Shown in pieces: positions 3 to 13,019 of a stretch of 64,000 nucleotides of DNA. Position 1 is the stretch's first letter, and each line of letters starts with the position of its first letter. The notes under the pieces were generated by a model, which searched no databases, was not told where the DNA came from, and saw nothing but the letters and a program-made list of their open reading frames with translations. The position numbers and the translations under genes are program-made. The stretch is taken from assembly GCA_039193195.1 (NCBI GenBank), contig JBCCWS010000001.1, positions 381,338 to 445,337 on the forward strand, read 5' to 3'. Source of the DNA: Pseudomonadota bacterium. Lineage in GTDB: Bacteria > Pseudomonadota > Gammaproteobacteria > Steroidobacterales > JBCBZW01.

Positions 3-185
3 ACCAACGTGGCGGAGGCGCCACCGCGGCACCCGACGCCGCTCAGTCAAGAGCAGTTGCTAGACCTGTTTGACAGCGAGACAACGGGGCGAGACGTCGT
101 TCTGGAGCCGGCGACGGCGAAGGACATGTGCGGCCAGAACGTCGTCGAGAAACCGTCCCTAGAGGTCGTGTACGACGATGTCTGA
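3..185 (+). CDS. bchX: chlorophyllide a reductase iron protein BchX, C-terminal fragment
   Basis: The window opens inside this gene; only the last 60 codons are present, ending at TGA 183-185. BchX is the nitrogenase-iron-protein-like ATPase that feeds electrons to BchYZ, which reduces the C7=C8 bond of chlorophyllide a in bacteriochlorophyll a synthesis. The tail contains LDLFD, VLEPAT, DMCGQN and a final [11 protein letters not shown], which is characteristic of BchX. Its last eight bases overlap the bchY start, so the two are translationally coupled. The 5' end lies outside the window, so completeness cannot be judged. Confidence 0.9.
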   Translation, partial: TNVAEAPPRHPTPLSQEQLLDLFDSETTGRDVVLEPATAKDMCGQNVVEKPSLEVVYDDV

Positions 186-1806
186 TGGCAACGACAGCCG
201 GCGCGAGGGCGAGGTCGTCTACGATCGCACCGCCGAGGTGGAAGTGACCGAGGCCCCGGCGCCTACGCCAGGTGCGGATGCTGCTCAGGGCAAAGCGTGC
301 GCGACGGCACCCGGCGCTGAGATCGCCGAACTCGCCACCGGAGGTGGCTGCCACGGCGGCGCCAAGCAGATGCAGAAAGCGGCCGAGATGGCCGGCAAGA
401 GCGATCTCCTCGAGCGCTACGCGAAGGACTATCCGAAGGGTCCCCACGATCAGCCACAGAGCATGTGCCCGGCCTTTGGGTCGCTGCGCGTTGGGCTGCG
501 TATGCGCCGGACGGCGACCATCATGTCGGGCTCCGCATGCTGCGTGTACGGACTCTCCTTCACGTCCCACTTCTACGGTGCCAAGCGCACCGTGGGCTAC
601 GTGCCGTTTAACAGCGAGACGTTGGTGACTGGGCGGCTCTTCGAGGACATTCGCGATGCGGTCCACGAGATCGCGGACCCGAAGGACTATGACGCGATCG
701 TCGTGACGAACCTGTGCGTACCGACGGCGTCGGGCGTGCCTCTCCAGCTGCTGCCAGACCAGATCAACGGCGTGCGTATCATCGGCATTGACGTGCCGGG
801 CTTCGGCATTCCCACGCACGCCGAAGCGAAGGATGTGTTGGCGGGCGCGATGCTCAAGTACGCCCGCAACGAGGTGAGCGCCGGGCCGGTGGCCGCCCCG
901 CGCGGTGGCGCGAGCCAGCGCCCCACGGTGACGCTGCTGGGCGAGCTGTTCCCGGCGGACCCCATCGGCATCGGCGCGATGCTGGCGCCCATGGGGCTCG
1001 CTGCCGGTCCGGTGGTGCCGACCCGCGAATGGCGTGAGCTGTACGAGGCCTTAGGGGGCGCGGCTGTCGCCGCGCTGCATCCCTTCTACACCGCTTCCGT
1101 GCGCGAATTCGAAGCCGCGGGCCGACCGATTGTGGGCTCCGCTCCCGTGGGGGTGGATGGCACCGTCGACTGGCTCAGGGCCATCGCCCAGGCGTGCGAA
1201 GTCCCCGCCGAGCGACGCGATCAGGCGATCAACGCGGTCGTGCCGGCGATACGTGGCGCCCTGGCAGACGCCCGTATCGAGGGCCGTATCACCCTGTCTG
1301 GGTACGAGGGGTCTGAGCTGCTGGTGGCACGCCTGCTCGTAGAGAGCGGCGCTGACGTGCGTTACGTTGGTAGCGCCTGTCCCCGTACGCCCTGGTCTGA
1401 CCCCGATCGTGAGTGGCTCGAGTCGCGCGGAGTGCTGGTGAACTTCCGGGCGTCCCTCGAACAGGACGTGGCGGCGATGGAGGAGTTCGAACCGGACCTC
1501 GCCGTTGGTACTACGCCTGTGGTGCAGAAGGCCAAGGAACGGGCGATTCCGTCCTTGTACTTTACGAACCTCATCTCGGCGCGTCCTCTCATGGGGCCTG
1601 CTGGTGCGGGCTCGCTAGCGCAAGTGGTGAACGCAGCTATCAAGCGCAAAGAACGCTTCGCGCAGATGAAGTCCTTCTTCGAAGGCGTAGGCACAGGCTA
1701 CGCCAGCGGCATCTGGGAGGACGTTCCGCAAGATCGCCCCAACTTCCGCAAGAAGCCAAAGAAGGCTGCGGCCGCACGTACCAACATCGCAGGCGAGGCG
1801 CTGTAG
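178..1806 (+). CDS. bchY: chlorophyllide a reductase subunit Y
   Basis: This 542-residue protein is one half of the catalytic BchYZ heterotetramer that, with BchX, makes the bacteriochlorin ring. It is homologous to NifD/BchN. Cys97 (in MCPAFG) and Cys121-Cys122 (in GSACCVYG) sit in the segment expected to provide iron-sulfur ligands, and NLCVPTASG follows near residue 180. The first 60-90 residues are a low-complexity Ala/Pro/Glu-rich stretch of the kind often seen in BchY N-termini. The ATG overlaps the bchX stop by eight bases, and bchZ begins two bases after its own stop. This indicates one bchXYZ operon, probably read through towards pufBA. Confidence 0.96.
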
Positions 1807-1808
1807 TC

Positions 1809-3251
1809 ATGCTCGTACTTGATCACGACCGCGCGGGCGGCTACTGGGGCGCAGTCTACGTCTTCACTGCGGTGAAAGGCCTACAGGTGGTGATCGATGG
1901 GCCTGTGGGTTGCGAGAACCTGCCAGTCACCTCCGTGCTCCATTACACAGATGCCTTGCCGCCCCACGAGCTTCCCGTGGTGGTCACTGGCTTGGCTGAG
2001 GAGGAGCTCGGCCAGCACGGCACAGAGAACGCGATGCGCCGCGCCAACGAAACCCTGGATCCCGAGCTGCCGAGCGTGGTCGTCACCGGCTCCATCGCCG
2101 AGATGATCGGCGGCGGGGTCACCCCGGAAGGCACCAACATCAAGCGCTTTTTGCCACGCACGATCGATGAGGATCAGTGGCAAAGCGGCAACCGTGCGAT
2201 GAACTGGCTGTGGAAGGAGTACGGGCTGCGCCGTGGCGGCGTGATGCCCAAGCGCTCCAAGCGCGAGCCGGATGCCAAGCCCCGGGTGAACATCATCGGT
2301 CCGTCATACGGGTACTTCAACACCTGGTCAGATCTCGCTGAGATCAGGCGCCTGGTAGAAGGTATAGGTGCGGAGATCAACATGGTCTTCCCGCTCTCGA
2401 CGCATTTGGCGGACATTCCCAAGCTGGTCGATGGTGATGTCAACATCTGCATGTACCGAGAGTTCGGGCGGCTGCTTTGCGAGGCGTTGGATCGTCCGTA
2501 CCTGCAAGCTCCAATCGGCCTGCAGAGTACGACCGCTTTCCTGCGCGCACTAGGCGAGGAGTTGGATCTCGACCCCGAACCCTTCATCGAGCGCGAGAAG
2601 CACACCACCATCAAGCCGCTCTGGGACCTATGGCGCTCGGTCACCCAGGATTTCTTCGCGACGGCCAACTTTGGCGTCGTGGCGAATGAGACCTACGCCC
2701 GTGGCCTTCGCAACTTCTTAGAGAATGACCTCGGCATGCCGTGTAACTTTGCCTTCTCGCGCAGCGCTGGCGTGAAGCCGGACAACGCAGAGGTGCGCAA
2801 AGCCGTTGCACAGAACAAGCCGCTCATTCTGTTCGGCAGCTTCAATGAACGAATGTATCTCGCCGAGGCCGGTGGCGGCGCTCAGTTTATCCAGGCCTCC
2901 TACCCGGGAACGGCGGTGCGCCGCCACACGGGCACGCCGTTCATGGGCTACTCGGGTGCGACCTATCTGATGCAAGAGGTATGCAACGCGCTGTTCGACG
3001 CGCTGTTCCACATCCTTCCCCTAGGTAAGAGCCTGGACGATGTGGAAGCCACGCCATCGCGCCTGGAGCGCGAGCTCCCCTGGGCGAGCGACGCGCAGAA
3101 AGCGTTGGATGAAGCGCTCGCGAGCGAGCCCGTATTGACCCGTATCTCAGCGGCTAAGCGCTTGCGCGACGCGGCAGAGGCGCGCGCCCGCACTGATGGT
3201 GCTGACGCGGTAGATACGACGCACTTGGAGGCCGTTCGCGAGCTCGTCTAG
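1809..3251 (+). CDS. bchZ: chlorophyllide a reductase subunit Z
   Basis: The 480-residue partner of BchY, related to NifK/BchB. The open frame extends upstream to 1413 inside bchY, but homology starts at the ATG at 1809: [17 protein letters not shown], then [13 protein letters not shown] around Cys35, an iron-sulfur ligand region, and [12 protein letters not shown]. The C-terminus is the typical Ala/Arg-rich helical tail. It starts two bases after bchY. Downstream are a 10-bp-stem inverted repeat and then pufB, matching the bchXYZ-puf superoperon known in purple bacteria. Confidence 0.96.
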
Positions 3252-3440: not shown

Positions 3441-3671
3441 ATGAGTGACAGGAACACGCTCACTGGGCTTACAGCCGAGGAAGCGCAAGAGTTCCATCGC
3501 CTATTTCAGGCGAGCTTCTTGGCGTTTACCGCGGTGGCGGTGATCGCGCATTTCCTTGTCTGGGTGTGGCGTCCTTGGTTCCCGGGTGTTGATGGGTATC
3601 AGGATTCTGCTGCTAGCAATGTTTCGGAGGTCCACGCGATCGTCGAAACCAACCGCGATCTTCTCGCTTAG
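3441..3671 (+). CDS. pufB: light-harvesting 1 beta polypeptide, with C-terminal extension
   Basis: A 76-residue inner-antenna beta subunit. It has the LH1-beta N-terminus [16 protein letters not shown], His19 at the membrane edge, one transmembrane helix (about 24-43), and His37, the expected axial ligand of a bacteriochlorophyll a, in [14 protein letters not shown]. Many beta chains stop at or soon after RPWF; this one runs on for about 27 residues ([25 protein letters not shown]), a mostly polar tail facing the periplasm. GGAGG eight bases before the ATG predicts strong translation. pufA follows 11 bases after the stop. Confidence 0.95.
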
Positions 3672-3682
3672 GGGGCCGGAAA

Positions 3683-3883
3683 ATGTGGCGTATATGGCTT
3701 CTTTTCGATCCGCGCCGGACGTTGGTCGCGATGGCAACTTTCCTGTTCGTTTTGGCGGCGCTGATTCACTTCATCGTGCTCAGTACCAGTCGCTTCAACT
3801 GGCTGGATGGGCCGACGGCAGCAGACCTGACGTCGCCGGCGGCAATCACGCTGCTCGACGAGCGCGAGTCACGCTTGAGCTAG
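3683..3883 (+). CDS. pufA: light-harvesting 1 alpha polypeptide
   Basis: A 66-residue LH1 alpha subunit that pairs with PufB to form the ring around the reaction centre. It begins [12 protein letters not shown] as usual, has one transmembrane helix (about 13-33), His29 as the expected bacteriochlorophyll ligand in [11 protein letters not shown], and Trp40 in RFNWLDG, the residue that tunes far-red absorption in LH1. The C-terminal extramembrane stretch is of normal length. A large hairpin begins 14 bases after the stop. The next gene is puhA and not pufL, a departure from the normal pufBALM order. Confidence 0.95.
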
Positions 3884-3945: not shown

Positions 3946-4092
3946 CTCGCAACCGCGCACCAGAGAGATAGAACCTATCGGGAGGTTTTGCAGGGGCCTC
4001 CCCGGACGTTGAGGTGACGTTGCCCCTAGGCCAACGGCGCCGGTGACCTGCAGCTTGAAAGGTAGTCCGATTGCATTGGCGAGGGTGTGACT

Positions 4093-4869
4093 ATGGGTGA
4101 GATCACAAGCTACATCGACGTAGCGCAGGTTGCCTTGTATCTGTTTTGGGCCTTCTTTGCTTCGCTGGTGATTTACCTGCAAAGGGAGAGCAAGCGCGAG
4201 GGTTTTCCGCAGGAAGAAGACGGTCTGTTACCAAATGCAGTCGATCGTGAATCCGTAGGATTCCCCCCAATGCCAGCTTCCAAGGAGTACCACTTGGAGG
4301 ACGGTACGATCGTTACCACACCGGCCCAAACTGGTGACCAAAGGGAACTGGCGCTCTCTCCATTACATGCGTGGCCTGGTACACCCTTTGAGCCTACCGG
4401 CAATCCGATGGTGGACGGTGTTGGTCCTGCGTCCTGGGCGGAGCGCGATGACGTGCCGGACATGACGCATGAGGGCCGTCCTAAAGTCATGCCAATGCGT
4501 AATGCAGAGACTTTCGAGATTGCGAAAGGAGATCCGGATCCTCGGGGCATGGCCGTCCTCGGAGCGGACGATGTGAGCGCCGGGGAGGTGGCAGATCTTT
4601 GGGTGGACACAGAAGAGGTGTTGATTCGCTACCTCGAAGTCGAGTTGTCCGGCTCCGATCGCAAGGTGTTGCTGCCCATGACATTCTCTCGCGTGGATCC
4701 GAAAGCGAAGCAGATTCTGGTGAGCTCGATTACCAGTGAGCAGTTTGCGGACGTGCCGACTTCGGCGAATCCGGAGATCGTTACGCGCCTTGAGGAAGAC
4801 AAGATTGTTGGCTACTACGGTGGCGGAAAGCTGTACGCGAAGCCCTCTCGCCGGGATCCGCTGCTATGA
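4093..4869 (+). CDS. puhA: photosynthetic reaction centre H subunit
   Basis: About 258 residues. It has one N-terminal transmembrane helix (about 10-30, in VAQVALYLFWAFFASLVIYLQ) followed by the basic RESKREGF stretch and a large cytoplasmic domain (LEDGTIVTTP; PKVMPMRNAETFEIAKGDPDPRG; KQILVSSITSEQF), all typical of PuhA. The H subunit caps L and M on the cytoplasmic side and shapes proton delivery to QB. A GTG two codons upstream (4087) is an alternative start. puhA normally sits in a puh operon far from pufBA; here it follows pufA after about 200 bases and overlaps puhB by four bases. Confidence 0.94.
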   Translation: MGEITSYIDVAQVALYLFWAFFASLVIYLQRESKREGFPQEEDGLLPNAVDRESVGFPPMPASKEYHLEDGTIVTTPAQTGDQRELALSPLHAWPGTPFEPTGNPMVDGVGPASWAERDDVPDMTHEGRPKVMPMRNAETFEIAKGDPDPRGMAVLGADDVSAGEVADLWVDTEEVLIRYLEVELSGSDRKVLLPMTFSRVDPKAKQILVSSITSEQFADVPTSANPEIVTRLEEDKIVGYYGGGKLYAKPSRRDPLL

Positions 4870-5552
4870 GCGCCGACGAGTGGAGTGATGGCGCCTGGGA
4901 AGACCAAGAGGGAATTCCGTTCGAGCTCCCCCAGGGGGAGCGACTGCTTTGGCAGGGGCGGCCTATCAAGGATCGCTTGGCCCGTGAGCTGTTCCATGTT
5001 CGGGCGATCGCGCTGGTGGCCCTAGCGTGTATGGCTTGGAAGGTGATTTCGGGGCTCAACCAGGGCCTTGCGGTTAGCGATTTGCTGCAAAGCGTGAGTG
5101 CTATTTTGCTAGGCGCGGTGTTGCTTCTCGGGACGCTCTATGGCTACGCCGTGCTGATGGCCCGCTCAACCATTTTCAGTATCACGGATAAGCGGGTCAT
5201 CATTCGGGATGGCGTATTCGTCCGAAAGTACTGGAACGTACCGTTCGGCCAGATTCGCAACGTCTCCTACCGTAGTTACGCAAGCGGCCCCTCAGGTGAG
5301 ATTTGCTTGGAGGTGGAGTCTGGTGGTGAGATGGGATATCTGATGCTTTGGCCTTACGCTCGGCCTTGGCGCATCTCCAGCCCACAGCCGTTGCTACGTG
5401 CACTGGAGGACGGCGAGGCCGTTGCGCGATTGCTCGGGCAGGCCTTACAGCGCTCCCTAGCGCCGAGCGGTCATCGGCAGCTTCGCTCACCGCCGCAAGC
5501 CCGGCAAAGTGCCAAGGCCGCTTCACGTGAAGTCGTGCCTGCGCCCAGCTAG
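4866..5552 (+). CDS. puhB: photosynthetic complex assembly protein PuhB
   Basis: A 228-residue membrane protein that helps assemble reaction centre and LH1. It starts inside the puhA stop codon (ATGA overlap). The sequence shows GERLLWQGRP, hydrophobic segments near 45-65 and 75-98, a PH-like domain (FSITDKRVIIRDGVFVRK; PFGQIRNVSYR), and the family signature LMLWPYARPWRISSPQPLLRALED near 160-182. The last 30 residues are low-complexity and basic. A symmetric terminator follows. puhC, which normally comes next, has been moved beyond an opposite-strand copper-protein gene. Confidence 0.92.
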   Translation: MSADEWSDGAWEDQEGIPFELPQGERLLWQGRPIKDRLARELFHVRAIALVALACMAWKVISGLNQGLAVSDLLQSVSAILLGAVLLLGTLYGYAVLMARSTIFSITDKRVIIRDGVFVRKYWNVPFGQIRNVSYRSYASGPSGEICLEVESGGEMGYLMLWPYARPWRISSPQPLLRALEDGEAVARLLGQALQRSLAPSGHRQLRSPPQARQSAKAASREVVPAPS

Positions 5553-5600: not shown

Positions 5601-5636
5601 AAGGCCCGCGTAACGCAACGGCATCACGCGGGCCTT
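5601..5636 (-). terminator. hairpin terminator between puhB and the pseudoazurin gene
   Basis: A perfect 11-bp stem, AAGGCCCGCGT (5601-5611) with ACGCGGGCCTT (5626-5636), lies between two convergent genes. On the minus strand it is followed by TTTT-rich sequence, so it should end the pseudoazurin transcript; on the plus strand the tail is weaker but the same stem may also stop puhAB transcription. Confidence 0.75.
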
Positions 5637-5669
5637 CGATACGCTTGGGAAGCTAGCGCAGATGCGGGG

Positions 5670-6122
5670 CTAATTGCTGACCTGAGCAAGGTAGTTGTCC
5701 AGCCGGCCCTTGATCAGCGGCGAAGTGCTGGATAGTGCGGAAGACTTCTCCTTGATCTCATCGATGTTGGTCGGTTCGCCTGCCACAAGCACGCCTACCA
5801 TTCCGGCGACGGAGTGAGGCTGGCACTTGTAGACGTAGACACCTTCCTTATCGATCGTGACGGAGACTTCTTTGTTTGCTCCGCCCTTCCAGCTCACAGA
5901 TCCTTCAGGTTTCAGATCGTCGATGGACTCGGAGTTGTGAGCGGCCATATCGGTCGCGACGAACTTCACTGTGTCGCCGACTGCAACCTGGAGTACGCCC
6001 GGTACGAACACCATCGGACCATCGGCGCCGACATTCTTCATTTCTACCGTATGCTCCGCCGCGTGCACGGCTGCGGTTGCCAGTAAGGACGTCCCCAGGA
6101 CTGACAGTAGTAGGTTCTTCAT
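5670..6122 (-). CDS. pseudoazurin (type 1 blue copper protein)
   Basis: A 150-residue exported cupredoxin: Sec signal peptide MKNLLLSVLGTSLLATAAVHA with cleavage near Ala21-Ala22, then a pseudoazurin fold. All four copper ligands are present: His62 (AHNSES), Cys100 and His103 (YKCQPH) and Met108 (AGMVGV), with the pseudoazurin spacing C-x2-H-x4-M. The C-terminal helical tail (NIDEIKEKSS...LDNYLAQVSN) is also pseudoazurin-like. Pseudoazurins are soluble periplasmic one-electron carriers, best known as donors to nitrite reductase. No denitrification gene is nearby. It is embedded on the opposite strand between puhB and puhC, which suggests a donor role to the reaction centre; that is inference. 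Confidence 0.92.
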   Translation of the reverse strand: MKNLLLSVLGTSLLATAAVHAAEHTVEMKNVGADGPMVFVPGVLQVAVGDTVKFVATDMAAHNSESIDDLKPEGSVSWKGGANKEVSVTIDKEGVYVYKCQPHSVAGMVGVLVAGEPTNIDEIKEKSSALSSTSPLIKGRLDNYLAQVSN

Positions 6123-6362
6123 TCAGGATTTTCCTCAGTCAAAAGGCGCTCGATTGTAAGCGAGTCACGCGCTCGGTAGTAGCGCCGAATTCAAACACTC
6201 GTGGCATAGGACTCCCGATGGCGAGAAAGTTTTCGATGGAATCTGTTGTTAACGATCTCGTGCGTCTAATTTTTGGATGACGCGATCTTAGTTTCAAGAA
6301 TTCCAGCGACGACTCCTCCGAACTTACCTGCTGCCTCCTGCTATGTAAATTATTTCATTAGG

Positions 6363-6380
6363 TGTCAGTGCAGATTGACA
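6363..6380 (+). promoter_or_regulatory. PpsR/CrtJ-type operator upstream of puhC
   Basis: TGTCAGTGCAGATTGACA matches TGT-N12-ACA exactly and is a 5+5 palindrome (TGTCA/TGACA). It ends 75 bp before the puhC start and shares the 333-bp region between divergent pseudoazurin and puhC. Its right half contains TTGACA (6375-6380), a perfect -35 hexamer, so a bound repressor would block the polymerase. I see no convincing -10. PpsR/CrtJ is the oxygen- and light-responsive repressor of photosynthesis genes in purple bacteria. The rest of 6123-6455 holds nothing else I can identify. Confidence 0.7.
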
Positions 6381-6455
6381 CTTAGGGATCAGCTTGGCTA
6401 CCCTTTTGCTCGCGAGGGCTGGCAATCCTTCGCGTTATGCCTGAGGAGGAGCAAC

Positions 6456-6980
6456 ATGAATCCGCCGTCTCGCAGACAACCGTTTCAATGGCTTGTGTTG
6501 TTGGTCGTACTGGCTCTGGGCGTTTCAATTTGGAGCAGCAAAGATAGCGAGTCGACTTACGCAGGAATGCTGGAGGATGCGGCCCCCGCCCTTCAGGAAC
6601 GCCATGTTGTCTTCATCGATGAGGCTGATGGCACGCTTCTGGTGGTCGATGTAGACACCGATCGTACGATTCGACGCGTTCCGAGCGAGGAGGAGGCGTT
6701 CATGCGCGCCCTGGTCCGCGCTGTGGAGAGAGATCGCTACGCCCACAGCGTTGAGGCAGGCTTGCCCATCACCATATCGGCCAGAGAGGACGGTGATCTT
6801 CTACTCATCGATGAGACGACAGGTCTGCTCTACCACCTGCGTGCCTTCGGGCCTACCAACCTGGCTGCATTCGCGCGCTTGCTCGAAGAGGCCGAATCAA
6901 CCGACAGGGATCCGGTCGCCTCGAGCTGGCCGAATTCCGTCGCTCTAGTCCCGTCGGCTAGCCCTGCCCGCCCCCGCTAG
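6456..6980 (+). CDS. puhC: photosynthetic complex assembly protein PuhC
   Basis: A 174-residue protein anchored by one N-terminal membrane helix (WLVLLVVLALGVSIW, about 12-26) with a periplasmic domain. The C-terminal part carries the PuhC signature: RALVRAVERDRY, PITISAREDGDLLLIDETTG and AFGPTNLAAFARLLEEA. PuhC helps reorganise reaction centre and LH1 during assembly. The frame opens at 6273, but the ATG at 6456 has GAGGAG eight bases upstream and begins the homologous region. It has its own PpsR-type operator and is followed by pufL after 355 bases. Confidence 0.87.
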   Translation: MNPPSRRQPFQWLVLLVVLALGVSIWSSKDSESTYAGMLEDAAPALQERHVVFIDEADGTLLVVDVDTDRTIRRVPSEEEAFMRALVRAVERDRYAHSVEAGLPITISAREDGDLLLIDETTGLLYHLRAFGPTNLAAFARLLEEAESTDRDPVASSWPNSVALVPSASPARPR

Positions 6981-7099: not shown

Positions 7100-7117
7100 T
7101 GTCTATTCTGGTTGACA
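7100..7117 (+). promoter_or_regulatory. PpsR/CrtJ-type operator, first of a tandem pair
   Basis: TGTCTATTCTGGTTGACA fits TGT-N12-ACA exactly. Its right half supplies TTGACA, the -35 element of the pufLM promoter. It is separated by exactly 8 bp (7118-7125) from the second site, the tandem spacing known for cooperative CrtJ/PpsR binding at purple-bacterial bch and crt promoters. Bases 7101-7109 are also the reverse complement of 7130-7138, so the two sites together form a larger palindrome. Confidence 0.82.
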
Positions 7118-7139
7118 TTAACCCCTGTAAGAATAGACT
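7112..7139 (+). promoter_or_regulatory. sigma-70-type promoter for pufLM
   Basis: TTGACA (7112-7117) and TAGACT (7134-7139; 4 of 6 consensus) are separated by 16 bp, and each is overlapped by one of the two PpsR-type operators. Transcription from here would leave a leader of about 190 bases before pufL, GC-rich and able to fold, in which I see no small open reading frame that I would call. The rest of the 355-bp puhC-pufL gap holds nothing else clear. Confidence 0.6.
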
Positions 7140-7143
7140 GACA
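7126..7143 (+). promoter_or_regulatory. PpsR/CrtJ-type operator, second of a tandem pair
   Basis: TGTAAGAATAGACTGACA fits TGT-N12-ACA and overlaps the probable -10 of the pufLM promoter. Together with the site at 7100-7117 it would cover both core promoter elements, the classical arrangement for aerobic repression. Confidence 0.8.
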
Positions 7144-7335: not shown

Positions 7336-8160
7336 ATGGCAATGCTCAACTTCGAGAAAAAGTACCGAGTGAGGGGAGGAACCCTCATCGGTGGGGATCT
7401 GTTCGACTTCTGGGTGGGGCCGTTTTACGTCGGCTTCTTCGGGGTCACCACGATCTTCTTCGCTGCGTTAGGCACCCTGTTGATCATCTTCGGGGCAGGC
7501 CAGGGTCCGACCTGGAACATCTGGAAGATCAATATCGCGCCGCCGGACATCAGCTACGGCCTGGCCCTAGCACCCATGATGGAAGGGGGCTTGTGGCAGA
7601 TCATCACCGTATGCGCAATCGGCGCCTTTGGCTCCTGGGCGCTGCGCGAAGTAGAGATATCTCGCAAACTTGGCATGGGGCTACACGTTCCCTTCGCATT
7701 CAGCATGGCGGTCTTCGCTTTCCTCACCTTGGAGGTGTTTAGGCCTCTCGCCCTAGGAGCCTGGGGGCACGCCTTCCCTTACGGAATCATCCGGCACCTC
7801 GATTGGGTGTCGAACATCGGCTATCAGTATGTGAATTTCCACTACAACCCGGCCCACATGATAGCGATCACCTTCTTCTTCACTACCAACTTCGCGCTAG
7901 CGCTACACGGAGGGTTGATTCTCTCGGCGACGAATCCGGGTAAGGGGAAGACAGTGAAAACGCCGGAACACGAAGATACCTATTTCCGAGACACCATCGG
8001 CTACTCGATCGGGACTCTCGGTATTCACCGCCTGGGGATGATGCTGGCGCTGCTGGCTGTCTTCTGGAGCGCCGTGTGTATCTTCATCAGCGGCACCCTG
8101 TGGACTGATCCGTGGCCGGATTGGTGGGAGTGGTGGCGCGAACTGCCGTGGTGGAGCTGA
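7336..8160 (+). CDS. pufL: photosynthetic reaction centre L subunit
   Basis: A 274-residue, five-helix core subunit of a type II reaction centre. It begins with the canonical [36 protein letters not shown]. Bacteriochlorophyll ligands His154 (RHLDW) and His174 (NPAHM) and non-haem-iron ligands His191 (LALHGG) and His231 (GIHRLG) are in place. AGAGGA lies just upstream of the ATG. Its distance from pufBA (over 3.4 kb) is abnormal: L normally follows pufA directly. pufM starts 12 bases after its stop. Confidence 0.97.
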
Positions 8161-8172
8161 GAGGACTGAGAG

Positions 8173-9090
8173 ATGAGTGAATACCAGTACATCTTCACGC
8201 GCGTGCAAGTGCGGGCCGCTCCTTCGCCCGGCATCCCTACGGAGAGCAGCGAGTCCGAGCGCACGAAAGGGGCGTTCTTCAACTGGCTAGCGGGCGCGAT
8301 CGGCAACGCTCAGATCGGCCCCATCTATCTGGGTTGGTTTGGTGTTACATCCCTGATCTGCGGATTTGCCGCCTTCGAGATCATCGGCCTGAATATGTGG
8401 GCCTCCGTGAATTGGGATCCGTTGGAGTTCGGTCGGCAGATCTTCTGGCTATCGCTCGATCCGCCGTCACCGGAGTACGGGCTGTCCTTTCCTCCCCTCG
8501 ATGAGGGAGGTTGGTGGCTGATTGCCGGATTCCTACTGACTACTTCGATCATTTTGTGGTGGGTGCGCATGTACCGGCGTGCCATCGACTTGGGGCTTGG
8601 AACACACGTGCCGTGGGCCTTTGCGTCTGCGATCTGGCTTTACCTAGTGCTCGGTTTCATCCGCCCATTGCTCATTGGCAGTTGGAGTGAGGCCGTACCC
8701 TTTGGCATCTTCCCCCACCTCGATTGGACCAACCTGTTTTCCCTGCGCTACGGGAACCTGTTCTACAACCCATTTCACATGCTCTCCATCGCATTCCTGT
8801 ACGGCTCAGCCCTGCTGTTTGCGATGCACGGTGCGACGATCCTTGCGGTTGGGAGGTACGGCGGCGATCGGGAGATCGAGCAGATTACCGATCGCGGCAC
8901 GGCGTCGGAGCGTGCAGCCCTGTTTTGGCGTTGGACCATGGGGTGGAACGCCACCATGGAGTCCGTTCACCGTTGGGCGTGGTGGTTCGCGATGCTGACC
9001 ACCCTAACTGGCGGGATCGGTATCTTGCTTACGGGGACCGCCGTCAACAACTGGTATCTGTGGGGCATTAAGCACGGATTCGGCCCGTAG
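8173..9090 (+). CDS. pufM: photosynthetic reaction centre M subunit
   Basis: A 305-residue partner of PufL carrying one half of the special pair and the QA site. Visible ligands are His182 (FPHLDW), His202 (NPFHML), His219 (AMHGAT), Glu234 (DREIEQ) and His266 (MESVHRW); the block [19 protein letters not shown] is diagnostic. The N-terminus ([12 protein letters not shown]) is normal. No pufC follows; a strong terminator begins 23 bases after the stop, and no CxxCH haem motif is encoded nearby. The reaction centre therefore probably takes electrons from a soluble carrier. Confidence 0.97.
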
Positions 9091-9113
9091 CGACAAGACG
9101 TGGGTGCGCAAGG

Positions 9114-9142
9114 AGGGCTCGCAATAGCGGGCCCTTTTTTTT
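9114..9142 (+). terminator. Rho-independent terminator of pufLM
   Basis: A 9-bp stem (AGGGCTCGC 9114-9122 with GCGGGCCCT 9127-9135, one G-T wobble) with an AATA loop is followed by eight consecutive T (9135-9142). It sits in the gap between pufM and convergent bchO and marks a true end of the pufLM operon. Confidence 0.9.
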
Positions 9143-9178: not shown

Positions 9179-10075
9179 CTACCACCCGTTCTGGGACAGG
9201 ACCTCCAAGATGCGATCGGGCGCCTCCTCGTGAGCGAGGTGTCCGACGCCGGTCAGCGTGGTGGCGATAGCGTCCGGGATCAGTGCGGCAGCGGCGTACG
9301 CGTGGCGCGCAGGGATCGTGCCGTCTAGCTCTGCGGCGACCAGCGTCGCTGGCGTGCGCAGCCTGCACAGATCACGAGCCAATGAGTGAAGGTCCCAAGC
9401 AGCCATCATGTCTAAGGCAGAGCGTACGTGTTCGGCGTTACCCGCCAAAGTGCGGTAATGGTCAACGCCCTTCGCGTCCAATGACGATCCTGTTTGCCGC
9501 AGAAGTTGTCGAATGACGCTACGATCGCTGCGCACACGCAGCGCGAACACGGGGGCTACGATAGCGACGCGGGCCAATCCTCTAGCGATTGGTTTTAGTA
9601 GGTGACCCGCTACGCCAGGAAAGGGCATGACGGCGCTGCAAAGCCCCAGCAGCCGGATATCATTACCCGAGAGCTGGCCGTCTAGGCACGCCCTGATGAG
9701 CAACGCAGCGCCGGCCGAGTGTCCAACCAGCAGCAGGGGCCTGCGCGCGTGGAGAAGATCCAAGCGACGCATAAGCTCACCGAGAGCTCGGGCCATCGTG
9801 GGCAGGCTCATAGCGTCTGCGCCGCAGCTTGGCGGTGAGCTGAAGCCGTGCCCGGGCAAATCCGGTGCAACTACCGTGAAGCGTTCGCAGAGCGGGTCGA
9901 TCAAGTGGCGCCATGAGTGAGCGCTCGACCCCGTGCCATGCACCAGAAGTGCCACTCGCTCGGCATCACCCCCGACCTGCGCATGCCACCGCATTCCACC
10001 TGCATGTACAAATCGACTCTTGTCAGCATGGGGCCACTGGTGGCGGTGCTCTTCCCAGCGTAGCCGGTCACCCAT
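9179..10075 (-). CDS. bchO: BchO, alpha/beta hydrolase linked to Mg-chelatase
   Basis: A 298-residue alpha/beta hydrolase. It has an oxyanion-hole motif HGTGSSAHSW (46-55), the nucleophile elbow GHSAGAA with Ser120, a late acidic residue in AAELDGTIPARH and the catalytic His in GVGHLAHEE. Homologues are regularly encoded beside bchD and bchI and are called BchO or Mg-chelatase accessory protein; their exact reaction is unknown. It is the last gene of a bchI-bchD-bchO operon, 41 bases after bchD, and converges on pufM. Confidence 0.85.
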   Translation of the reverse strand: MGDRLRWEEHRHQWPHADKSRFVHAGGMRWHAQVGGDAERVALLVHGTGSSAHSWRHLIDPLCERFTVVAPDLPGHGFSSPPSCGADAMSLPTMARALGELMRRLDLLHARRPLLLVGHSAGAALLIRACLDGQLSGNDIRLLGLCSAVMPFPGVAGHLLKPIARGLARVAIVAPVFALRVRSDRSVIRQLLRQTGSSLDAKGVDHYRTLAGNAEHVRSALDMMAAWDLHSLARDLCRLRTPATLVAAELDGTIPARHAYAAAALIPDAIATTLTGVGHLAHEEAPDRILEVLSQNGW

Positions 10076-10116
10076 TGGGGCCTCGCCGCAGCCCTCTCCA
10101 TCGGCGTTCGCTAGCC

Positions 10117-11970
10117 CTAAGCACTCTTCGGTGCGCCGGCACGTTGTATCGCCTGCGACAGCTGTGCGGCGCTTGCGCTCGGCAGCAGGAGGTATCTCGC
10201 GTTCAGTGCGTCGGCTACGCGCCCAGCCTGCGCTTGCGCCTTGCGCGACACATCAATCAGCACGGTCGGTACCCCTTCTTGGGCAAGGGAGCGCGCTGAG
10301 GCTAGCGCGTCTTCCATCGCCCGCTCGCGGCCGCCGGTGCCGTCGCGTGCCACGTTGGCGCGTCCATCGGTGAGCAAGACGACGAACGCGGTTTCACCAG
10401 CCCGTTTGATCTGTTCGACGAGGGAGTGAGTGGCATCAATGCCGGCGGCGAGCGGAGTACCCCCTCCGCCTGGGAGGCCGGCGAGTTCGCGCTTCGCGCG
10501 CACCAGGGAGCGAGTGGGGGGCAAGAGCACGCTCGCGTCACGGCCTCGGAAGGCAACCAAGGCGACTTGATCACGGCGGACGTAGCATTCGGCGAGCAGC
10601 AGCTCGACAGCACCTTTGGCCTCGGCCAGGCGGTGTAAGGCGGCGGAGCCCGAGGCGTCGACCACAAAAACCGTGGTCGTTGGCGAATGCTGTCGCAGGC
10701 GAAGGACGCGTAGGTCTTCGCCGTGCACGCGCAGCGGTGGCGCACTGCCGGTCTCCCCTCCTGCGGCCACGGGCGGTGGGCGGCGTCGGAGGCGTTGCCA
10801 GGGGGCTGCGGCCCGGAGCGTGTCGAGTACGGCGAGGCGCGCGCCGTCTGCGGGTGAACCGGGAATGCTGCCTATCGGCCGCCCACGCCGGATCGACTTC
10901 ACAACGGCGCCGGCCTTGCCTCCTGCGCCACGGCTAGGAGTACCACTAACCTGATCGGTGATTGCGCGAAGCACATCCTGGGGAATGGCCGCCGCCGCGG
11001 CCTCTAGAACCTGTTCTTCGAGAGTCCCCTCTTGGTGAGCTGTCTGATCCTCGCTCTCGCCGCCCTCGTCGTCCTCCGATGGTGGTGGCGCAGGCTCGGG
11101 CTCCTGCGGTAGGTCTTCCGCTCGGGACTCGCTCTGCTCGGGAGTTGTAGGCTCCTCCTTCGGAGGGGCGTCTTCTACGGGCACCGGTGCTCGCGTGGCG
11201 CGCGGCGCCAGCACCAAGCGGGCTGCAAGGCTTACGTCCTCATCATTGACGCTATCCCGTTGATCCAGAGCCGCCGCCGCCCGCGCTGTGCGTAGTGCGA
11301 ACAGGGATGGTCGGAGCGACCATACGCCGAGCGCGACACCTGCGCTCGCCAGCGCCTCGTAGCGCGCCGGATCCACCTCGACGCACGGAGCCAGTTCTCG
11401 GGCAGCGGCGATGCGCGACGGTTCGAACCAACCCTCGCTCACATCGCGCCAGGAAATGGCGTGCAGATCTACCGTGAAGGCGAGTCGATCGCCCAGAGCG
11501 GGAAGTAGCGATTCACCCGCTTGTGTATCGCCCTCGTCCAAGGCGATGGTGGCGAATCGGGCCGGTAGGCGATCGCGGAAACCCTCGCGCTCCAGGGCGA
11601 TCTCCCCGCGGTCTATGCAGGCGCAGATGCGCGCCGCTACACCCGGTTCGAGGCGTTCCGCCATGAGCAGTTCGATAACGCCGCCGTCGGCCTGCGCTAG
11701 CAGCCCGCGCTGGGCGACCGCCTTGCCCGTGCGTAGGGTCGCCGTGAGATCTAGTCCGCCGAGGAGACGGTCGTCGCGGATGTTGGTGGGTATACGCTGC
11801 CAAGGCATTTGCGGCAGCAGCTGATGCAAGGTGTTGAGCCAGGTGTCACGGACGTGCCCGGGTAGGGCGCGCAGGCGCACCCCACCAAGTCCAAATGGGT
11901 CGACGCATAGGAGGGCGGCCACGCCCATGGCGTTAGCCCAGCGTTCAACCCCGTCTTCGCCCTCGCTCAC
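10117..11970 (-). CDS. bchD: magnesium chelatase subunit D
   Basis: A 617-residue subunit that couples the BchI AAA+ ring to the porphyrin-binding BchH when Mg is inserted into protoporphyrin IX. The N-terminal third resembles BchI but lacks an obvious Walker A motif. An acidic, proline-rich linker covers roughly residues 270-320. The C-terminus is a von Willebrand A domain with an intact metal site, DASGS at 438-442 and the TDGR loop about 95 residues later. It starts with GTG inside the bchI stop (GTGA overlap). Confidence 0.94.
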   Translation of the reverse strand: MSEGEDGVERWANAMGVAALLCVDPFGLGGVRLRALPGHVRDTWLNTLHQLLPQMPWQRIPTNIRDDRLLGGLDLTATLRTGKAVAQRGLLAQADGGVIELLMAERLEPGVAARICACIDRGEIALEREGFRDRLPARFATIALDEGDTQAGESLLPALGDRLAFTVDLHAISWRDVSEGWFEPSRIAAARELAPCVEVDPARYEALASAGVALGVWSLRPSLFALRTARAAAALDQRDSVNDEDVSLAARLVLAPRATRAPVPVEDAPPKEEPTTPEQSESRAEDLPQEPEPAPPPSEDDEGGESEDQTAHQEGTLEEQVLEAAAAAIPQDVLRAITDQVSGTPSRGAGGKAGAVVKSIRRGRPIGSIPGSPADGARLAVLDTLRAAAPWQRLRRRPPPVAAGGETGSAPPLRVHGEDLRVLRLRQHSPTTTVFVVDASGSAALHRLAEAKGAVELLLAECYVRRDQVALVAFRGRDASVLLPPTRSLVRAKRELAGLPGGGGTPLAAGIDATHSLVEQIKRAGETAFVVLLTDGRANVARDGTGGRERAMEDALASARSLAQEGVPTVLIDVSRKAQAQAGRVADALNARYLLLPSASAAQLSQAIQRAGAPKSA

Positions 11971-13019
11971 GACCCGAAGACGGTCTCGAGCATGCGTTGC
12001 ACGCGGACGCTGGAGCCGGCGTCGTCGAGGGGGTCACGACGCAGGCGGTGGCGTAGGGCGGAAGGGGCGATGGCGATGAGGTGCCTATCGCTCACCTGCG
12101 CGTCCCCGTGAAGGGCCGCGAAGGCGCGGGAGGCTCGCATCATCGTAAGCTCGCCGCGCAAGCCATCCGTGCCTAGGCGAACGCATAGGTCTGAGATGCG
12201 CTCCAGCGTTTCGTCACTAACAGTTGTGTCGTCTAGGCGCTCGCGGGCCTTCTTGATGGCGCTGCGGATCTTACCGTCCTGACGCTTCCACTGTTCCCGG
12301 AACCCGGTCGGATCTGCCTCGAAAGCATCGCGTCGACGAATCACCGATACCCTAGCCTTCACATCTTCAGGCGTGCGCACCTCAACGGACAGGCCGAAGC
12401 GATCCAGCAGCTGCGGGCGCAGTTCGCCCTCCTCAGGGTTGCCGCTGCCAACCAGCACCAAGCGCGCCGGGTGGCGGATGCTCAGTCCCTCGCGCTCGAC
12501 GACGTTCTCACCCGATGCGGCAACGTCGAGCAATAGATCGACTAGGTGATCCTCCAGCAGGTTGACCTCATCGATGTACAGGAACCCGCGGTTTGCTCGC
12601 GCGAGCAAGCCAGGTTCGAAGGCCTTCTCTCCGTGGGCTAGGGCGCGCTCGAGATCCAAGGCACCCACCACGCGGTCCTCCGTGGCGCCGAGAGGCAGGT
12701 CGACCACGGGTACGGCCACGAGGCGCGATTTCAAGTCTTCCAGCGGTTTCGGCGTGCCGATGCCACAGTGCTCGCACAGGCCGCAGGGGCGCTCCGGCGC
12801 CGCACCGTAGGGACAGCCCTTGACCGCGCGCATCTTCGGCAAGAGATCGGCGAGGGCACGGATGGCAGTGGACTTGCCGGTGCCGCGATCTCCGAAGGCG
12901 AGGACACCGCCGACGGAGGGGTCGATCGCTGCGATCTGCAGGGCGAGCTTGAGTTCGTCCTGGCCGACGATCGCCGAGAACGGGTAGACCTTAGCGTGGT
13001 TCAAATGCGCTGCTCGCAA
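11967..13019 (-). CDS. bchI: magnesium chelatase subunit I (AAA+ ATPase)
   Basis: The ATPase motor of Mg-chelatase, 350 residues. Walker A is GDRGTGKS (43-50), Walker B lies in FLYIDEVNLLEDH near residue 145, and GSGNPEEGELRPQLLDRFGL is the sensor/arginine-finger region. The frame starts with TTG at 13019; there is no ATG before the conserved VYPFSAIVGQDELK, so TTG or a slightly later start must be used. First gene of bchI-bchD-bchO. The 401 bases upstream, shared with the divergent oxidase gene, hold only one imperfect PpsR-like site (13160-13177, TGT-N12-ACC) and no coding sequence I would accept. Confidence 0.95.
   Translation of the reverse strand: MRAAHLNHAKVYPFSAIVGQDELKLALQIAAIDPSVGGVLAFGDRGTGKSTAIRALADLLPKMRAVKGCPYGAAPERPCGLCEHCGIGTPKPLEDLKSRLVAVPVVDLPLGATEDRVVGALDLERALAHGEKAFEPGLLARANRGFLYIDEVNLLEDHLVDLLLDVAASGENVVEREGLSIRHPARLVLVGSGNPEEGELRPQLLDRFGLSVEVRTPEDVKARVSVIRRRDAFEADPTGFREQWKRQDGKIRSAIKKARERLDDTTVSDETLERISDLCVRLGTDGLRGELTMMRASRAFAALHGDAQVSDRHLIAIAPSALRHRLRRDPLDDAGSSVRVQRMLETVFGS

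Follow-up and report, generated by a model that had tools for sequence, protein, structure and literature searches.

A true pseudoazurin (Paz) is encoded within the photosynthesis cluster of this bacterium, where its presence is not due to chance, and it probably takes electrons from the bc1 complex directly to the photo-oxidised special pair, replacing both HiPIP and PufC. According to textbooks, purple reaction centres are fed by c-type cytochromes or HiPIP. As these usual two donors of relatives, PufC and HiPIP, have been lost and a copper protein gene lies among the photosynthesis genes, a plastocyanin-like solution may have evolved independently in this bacterium. That a blue copper protein takes the place of PufC as donor had been proposed in a sequence-only reading of this DNA, and the proposal is now supported by the absence of pufC, a HiPIP pseudogene and the lack of a recognised classical cytochrome c2. 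Further evidence, not contained in that reading, comes from a remodelled donor face of the reaction centre, a PpsR box, and azurin genes next to pufLM in other PufC-less genomes. Electron transfer has not been shown; there are no data on the binding, kinetics or expression of Paz, and its donor role is supported at the level of genomics only.

A pseudoazurin gene within the photosynthesis cluster

The 150-residue Paz passed the cut-off of the pseudoazurin profile TIGR02375 by a narrow margin (111.6 bits, cut-off 109.85) and scored 58 bits with PF00127. The type 1 copper ligands H62, C100, H103 and M108 are found in the expected order and spacing and are invariant in a 15-member alignment. An AlphaFold model (pLDDT 88) was used for a structure search, in which the top PDB matches were all pseudoazurins (2jkw and 1zia; E 1e-15, target TM 0.94), and two C-terminal helices (residues 120-131 and 135-146) follow the cupredoxin sandwich in this model. 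Export is predicted from a type I signal peptide motif, MKNLLLSVLGTSLLATAAVHA followed by AEH (VHA/AEH), which was read by eye. The sequence-only reading had placed this pseudoazurin at the correct coordinates, with the same four ligands and a signal peptide, between puhB and puhC (now identified by NF040894 and TIGR03054, respectively) and in a cluster with a terminator straight after pufM, and all of these features have been recovered in the present analysis, with paz on the minus strand (Table 1).

The net charge of Paz is acidic, about -6. A charge-swap signature was considered and rejected, because the loss of the basic ring present in denitrifier pseudoazurins is common to the marine relatives of Paz. 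One extra residue precedes the ligand His62 (residues 60-62, DMAAHN versus DM-AHN), which is unique to Paz among the aligned relatives. The nearest relatives are largely marine, and none of the best 80 matches in a search of 84,980 species was found near photosynthesis genes. Hundreds of plasmid-borne pseudoazurins, mostly rhizobial, are all less than 60% identical to Paz.

Table 1. Features of the photosynthesis cluster, numbered from the first nucleotide of the window (the whole 64-kb stretch of DNA analysed)
Feature	Position	Strand	Remarks
bchY + bchZ	178..3251	+	conserved left flank of the puf locus
pufB + pufA (LH1 beta/alpha)	3477..3805	+	PF00556, core matches 3477-3581 and 3683-3805; contig C1:384814-385142
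puhA (reaction-centre H subunit)	4087..4869	+	TIGR01150; moved between pufA and pufL
puhB (assembly factor)	4866..5552	+	NF040894
Hairpin AAGGCCCGCGT...ACGCGGGCCTT	5602..5638		strong fold; between convergent puhB and paz
paz (pseudoazurin)	5670..6122	-	signal peptide and 129-aa type 1 copper protein
Divergent paz/puhC intergenic region	6123..6455		ribosome-binding site GAGGAAAA before the paz ATG
Perfect PpsR/CrtJ-type palindrome TGTCA-N8-TGACA	6363..6380		75 nt from puhC, 240 nt from paz
puhC (assembly factor)	6456..6980	+	TIGR03054
Two tandem PpsR-type palindromes (7100/7126)	7100..7143		8 nt apart; upstream of pufL
pufL	7336..8160	+	donor face: L257 R/K to D, L258 G to P; Tyr L162 kept
pufM	8173..9090	+	donor face: M187 A to N, M188 A to L, M95 E to D, M292 D to N
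Terminator directly 3' of pufM	9110..9139	+	strong
bchO, bchD, bchI	9179..13019	-	right flank

The genes are ordered bchY-bchZ-pufB-pufA-puhA-puhB-paz-puhC-pufL-pufM, with bchO, bchD and bchI next, encoded on the opposite strand, so that the puf operon is split by puhAB-paz-puhC; paz is reversed, convergent with puhB and divergent from puhC. The gap between pufM and bchO measures 88 bp and contains neither pufC nor a remnant of it. The same region of a congener (G001) has the canonical arrangement bchYZ-pufBALMC-bchO, with an intact pufC in its usual place, and puhABC and acsF of the congener are located in the usual lhaA-puhABC-acsF-puhE order about 14 kb from puf. In the genome studied here puhABC and acsF are gone from the lhaA-puhE place, where the flanking genes are 88-91% identical to those of the congener, and acsF is located on another contig (C23:41299-42429, or L155:1299-2429; TIGR02029, 510 bits) with 55% identity to acsF of the congener. 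A lipoprotein cupredoxin with an orthologue in the congener is encoded 1.7 kb from acsF on the same contig. Another LH alpha/beta gene pair is located outside the cluster (C58:24629-24874), with a counterpart in the congener (C233).

Identity to the congener is 71% for puhA, 46% for puhB and 34% for puhC. The puhABC genes are more diverged from the congener at four-fold sites than their flanks (130/187 versus 1319/2563, p 9e-7) and have a lower GC content, which suggests that the puhAB-paz-puhC segment was imported from another lineage. For pufLM the divergence exceeds that of the flanks only slightly (147/243 versus the same 1319/2563, p 0.004), and in the PufLM tree this genome is sister to the congener with full support. 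These genes may be native but accelerated, or of a close source, as far as can be judged from the sequences. A wholesale import of pufLM together with puhABC has not been settled, as the tree joins both genomes and the divergence is only mild.

The hairpin between the convergent puhB and paz genes is likely a bidirectional terminator for both of them. This hairpin, together with the terminator after pufM, indicates that paz is its own transcription unit, read from the intergenic region shared with puhC. Only the three PpsR-type palindromes listed in Table 1 match the consensus TGTcaN8tgACA (PMC2654016) with at most one mismatch in the 64 kb, for an expectation of 0.84 per window and of 0.004 in the 333-bp gap between paz and puhC. 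The position of paz within the puf-puh genes, with a perfect PpsR box in its promoter region, supports the donor role. PpsR control of paz itself is plausible from this arrangement, although not shown, since the box is nearer to puhC than to paz and may serve puhC alone.

Electron donors and the donor face of the reaction centre

The genome-wide search for pufC, HiPIP and cytochrome c2 agreed with the sequence-only reading. No match to PF02276 (PufC) was found in the whole 98.7%-complete genome, window included, so that the absence of a tetrahaem cytochrome gene noticed in the window holds for the complete assembly. The sole HiPIP gene carries two in-frame TAG codons at positions where its syntenic orthologue in the congener, which has two intact HiPIPs, codes for Gln; on sequence grounds it is a young pseudogene, and in a survey of 59 phototroph genomes it was the only HiPIP match with a stop. 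The pseudogene is located at C14:111590-111781 (L017, L053) and retains all four Cys codons. Readthrough of TAG was considered unlikely because puhB, puhC, pufM and paz all end with this codon.

The 14 PF00034 matches in the genome were c4-/c5-like or oxidase- and dehydrogenase-linked cytochromes, without a recognised classical cytochrome c2. This inventory rests on Pfam searches, with the types read by eye and two of the proteins run against NCBIfam. A di-haem c4-like protein (C1:328889-329554), encoded about 52 kb from the photosynthesis cluster, and a mono-haem cytochrome on contig C11 have no evident counterpart among the matches of the congener. An azurin gene unlinked to the cluster was also found (C73:7588-8037). 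No intact HiPIP or classical c2 was recognised, yet the c4/c5-type cytochromes and this azurin remain as possible donors, which counts against the donor role of Paz.

PufL and PufM were aligned with those of 29 PufC-bearing relatives and of Rba. sphaeroides, and the sequences were checked against the PDB; the list of docking positions and the transmembrane/periplasmic boundaries were assumed to be those of the Rba. sphaeroides structure. The present reaction centre retains Tyr L162, Asp L155, Asp M184 and Glu M173. Position L257 is Asp both here and in Rba. sphaeroides, and R, K, H or S in 29/29 PufC-bearing relatives. At M187, Ala is present in 26 of the 29, Asn in this genome, in Rba. sphaeroides and in two other PufC-less reaction centres (G005 and G513), and Gln in a further one (G083). 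Leu replaces at M188 the Ala found in 28/29 relatives. Further differences at positions covered by PufC or involved in c2 docking affect L258, M95 and M292. Conserved sites of PufL/PufM have changed more often on the periplasmic side than elsewhere (11/102 versus 9/214, p 0.026), and the same test gave no enrichment in the PufC-bearing congener (5/99 versus 10/214). M188 is among these conserved-site changes; L257 and M187 are less conserved but telling. The criterion for a PufC-less donor face, namely Tyr L162 with residues other than Ala at M187/M188, is met. With its docking residues kept and its donor face remodelled, the reaction centre looks, from its sequence, like a functional one that has adapted to receiving electrons directly from a soluble carrier.

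In the proposed chain (quinol, bc1 complex, pseudoazurin, P+), Paz would be reduced by cytochrome c1 of the bc1 complex, whose genes were not looked for. The His103 face of Paz would then dock over Tyr L162, on the PufL/PufM surface exposed where PufC once lay, and Paz would reduce P+, substituting the two-step transfer from HiPIP to the tetrahaem PufC and then to P that operates in relatives. Co-expression of paz with puf is also inferred. Pseudoazurin potentials are about +0.26 to +0.28 V, well below that of P/P+ (about +0.45 to +0.5 V). Electrostatic steering of Paz to the reaction centre is not obviously favourable, because Paz is acidic and the donor face of the reaction centre has retained acidic residues or acquired new ones, such as L257D.

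Blue copper genes in other PufC-less genomes and competing explanations

In a survey of the order, pufM was found in 53 of the 396 genomes sampled, 49 of which also have pufC. The four without pufC are the present genome (G000), G005, G083, and G148, in which pufM is cut by a contig end. An azurin lipoprotein is encoded 1.3 kb downstream of pufM in G005 (L207:12012-12704; TIGR02695, 153.7 bits, cut-off 105.1) and 0.3 kb downstream, in convergent orientation, in G083 (L208:10899-11666). The latter scored 234 bits with an azurin profile built partly from the G083 protein itself. No HiPIP match was found in G005 or G083, and in the order as a whole intact HiPIP is present in 46/49 PufC-bearing versus 0/3 PufC-less genomes (Fisher p 9e-4). 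The PufC-bearing phototrophs without a HiPIP match are G151, G260 and G394, which must either use another donor to PufC or be incompletely assembled. No cupredoxin was found near puf at any of 54 PufC-bearing loci, 44 of which include 3 kb or more of sequence on either side of pufM. A puf-linked cupredoxin is therefore present in 3/3 PufC-less versus 0/54 PufC-bearing cases (p 3e-5 by genome). Because G005 and G083 form one clade in the PufLM tree (support 0.985), with azurins 42% identical to each other, the sequences point to only two independent gains of a blue copper gene beside puf, once a pseudoazurin and once an azurin.

The azurins of G005 and G083 resemble Paz in being encoded beside pufLM in genomes lacking PufC and HiPIP, and differ from it in family, in their membrane tether, in their location downstream of pufM and in the lack of a PpsR box close by. 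Their azurin domains are carried by lipoproteins with long Ala/Asp/Glu-rich tethers. In the congener a HiPIP is carried by a lipoprotein whose tether is much the same, as though redox domains had been exchanged on a common type of anchor. The balance leans slightly towards gammaproteobacterial phototrophs having at least twice exchanged the HiPIP-to-PufC branch for a puf-linked blue copper protein that reduces the special pair directly. If so, a plastocyanin-type design would have been reached convergently, with a pseudoazurin here and an azurin lipoprotein in the lineage of G005 and G083.

The main donor could instead be another carrier, the likeliest candidates being the di-haem c4-like protein and the azurin encoded on C73, with Paz in a minor or alternative role, such as supplying electrons to a terminal oxidase. 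The c4-like gene, without an evident counterpart among the matches of the congener and about 52 kb from the cluster, is compatible with this possibility, and the azurin belongs to the family encoded beside puf in G005 and G083. In G513, a genome of another order, the reaction centre lacks PufC (M187 N, M188 Y; pufC absent within about 9 kb of pufM, to which the search was limited); G513 has no HiPIP, and no cupredoxin is encoded within about 9 kb of its pufM (L263, pufM at 9308-10222). Some other donor must exist there, which also weighs against Paz as direct donor here. However, the genes for the c4-like protein and the azurin are unlinked, only paz is located inside the cluster beside a PpsR-type box, and the lack of cupredoxins near puf in PufC-bearing relatives makes the linkage specific to the loss of PufC. 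Another main carrier is considered unlikely, without being negligible.

Known pseudoazurins mostly serve denitrification, and Paz might merely have hitch-hiked with a foreign puhAB-paz-puhC segment, serving a copper nitrite reductase, an N2O reductase or a peroxidase. The four-fold divergence and lower GC of puhABC fit such an import, and the location of the 80 nearest, largely marine relatives away from photosynthesis genes also speaks against the donor role. No nirK or nosZ adjoins paz, as far as the locus is concerned. This explanation would not account for the missing PufC and HiPIP, for the remodelling of the donor face or for the azurin beside puf in the other PufC-less lineage, and is regarded as very improbable. 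Even harder to sustain is a general decay of phototrophy, in which the broken HiPIP gene and the disappearance of pufC and of the native puhABC-acsF block from their old places would be signs of degeneration and paz would be irrelevant. Every puf, puh and bch gene examined is an open frame, puhABC and acsF are present elsewhere and LH genes occur at two loci. Moreover, docking residues, Tyr L162 among them, have been conserved, and similar changes of the donor face are seen in other PufC-less reaction centres. Direct donation by Paz to the special pair is retained as the best explanation.

The azurin lipoprotein genes found 0.3-1.3 kb from pufM in G005 and G083 are new and make the pattern broader than the sequence-only reading had seen. 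If the explanation is true, a natural copper donor acts on the special pair of a type II reaction centre and has arisen more than once with the loss of PufC and HiPIP, as a convergent plastocyanin solution. This would bear on the copper and iron economy of aerobic phototrophs, on the evolution of donor docking sites and on engineering efforts coupling purple reaction centres to plastocyanin. In the order the presence of a puf-linked cupredoxin tracks the absence of PufC, which gives a clear prediction that can be tested with purified components.

Comparison with known systems

Among the papers searched, none joined azurin, pufC and reaction center, and in a 2025 review of the photosystems of aerobic phototrophs the words copper, azurin and HiPIP do not occur. 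In Congregibacter litoralis only c4 and c5 cytochromes are present and HiPIP has been proposed as the donor to PufC (PMC2654016), which makes the HiPIP-to-PufC chain the likely ancestral state of the order. This chain, presumed for Congregibacter and related Gammaproteobacteria (PMC2654016), is retained with both components in most PufC-bearing relatives, whereas PufC and HiPIP are lost or broken in the present genome.

A pseudoazurin gene within the photosynthesis cluster has been mentioned in one sentence, without comment on its function, for Erythrobacter sp. JL475, and the genus Erythrobacter mostly lacks pufC (PMC4919336). The likeness lies in a pseudoazurin gene located within the photosynthesis cluster of a genome lacking pufC; JL475, however, is an Alphaproteobacterium, and the gene was reported merely as an inserted one (PMC4919336).

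Auracyanin of Chloroflexus and Roseiflexus is, like Paz, a type 1 blue copper protein that is proposed to deliver electrons, as a mobile carrier, to a type II reaction centre (PMC3150298). It is a different cupredoxin from another phylum, and it acts between the alternative complex III and a reaction centre that keeps its PufC cytochrome (c554) (PMC3150298). In the case of Paz, PufC is absent and donation would go directly to the special pair.

The reaction centre of Rba. sphaeroides can be supplied by plastocyanin instead of cytochrome c2, both in vivo and in vitro, although in an engineered system only (PMC12493188), and this precedent speaks for the donor role of Paz. The plastocyanin of Synechocystis, which likewise carries an acidic patch, donated poorly when salt was low and worked best near 700 mM NaCl (PMC12493188); by analogy, such a high-salt optimum could suit a marine cell with a net-acidic carrier. 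Paz would resemble the plastocyanin of cyanobacteria and plants as a soluble blue copper protein carrying electrons from a bc-type complex directly to a photo-oxidised special pair, but the acceptor of plastocyanin is photosystem I, a type I reaction centre, and pseudoazurin belongs to a separate family distinguished by its two C-terminal helices.
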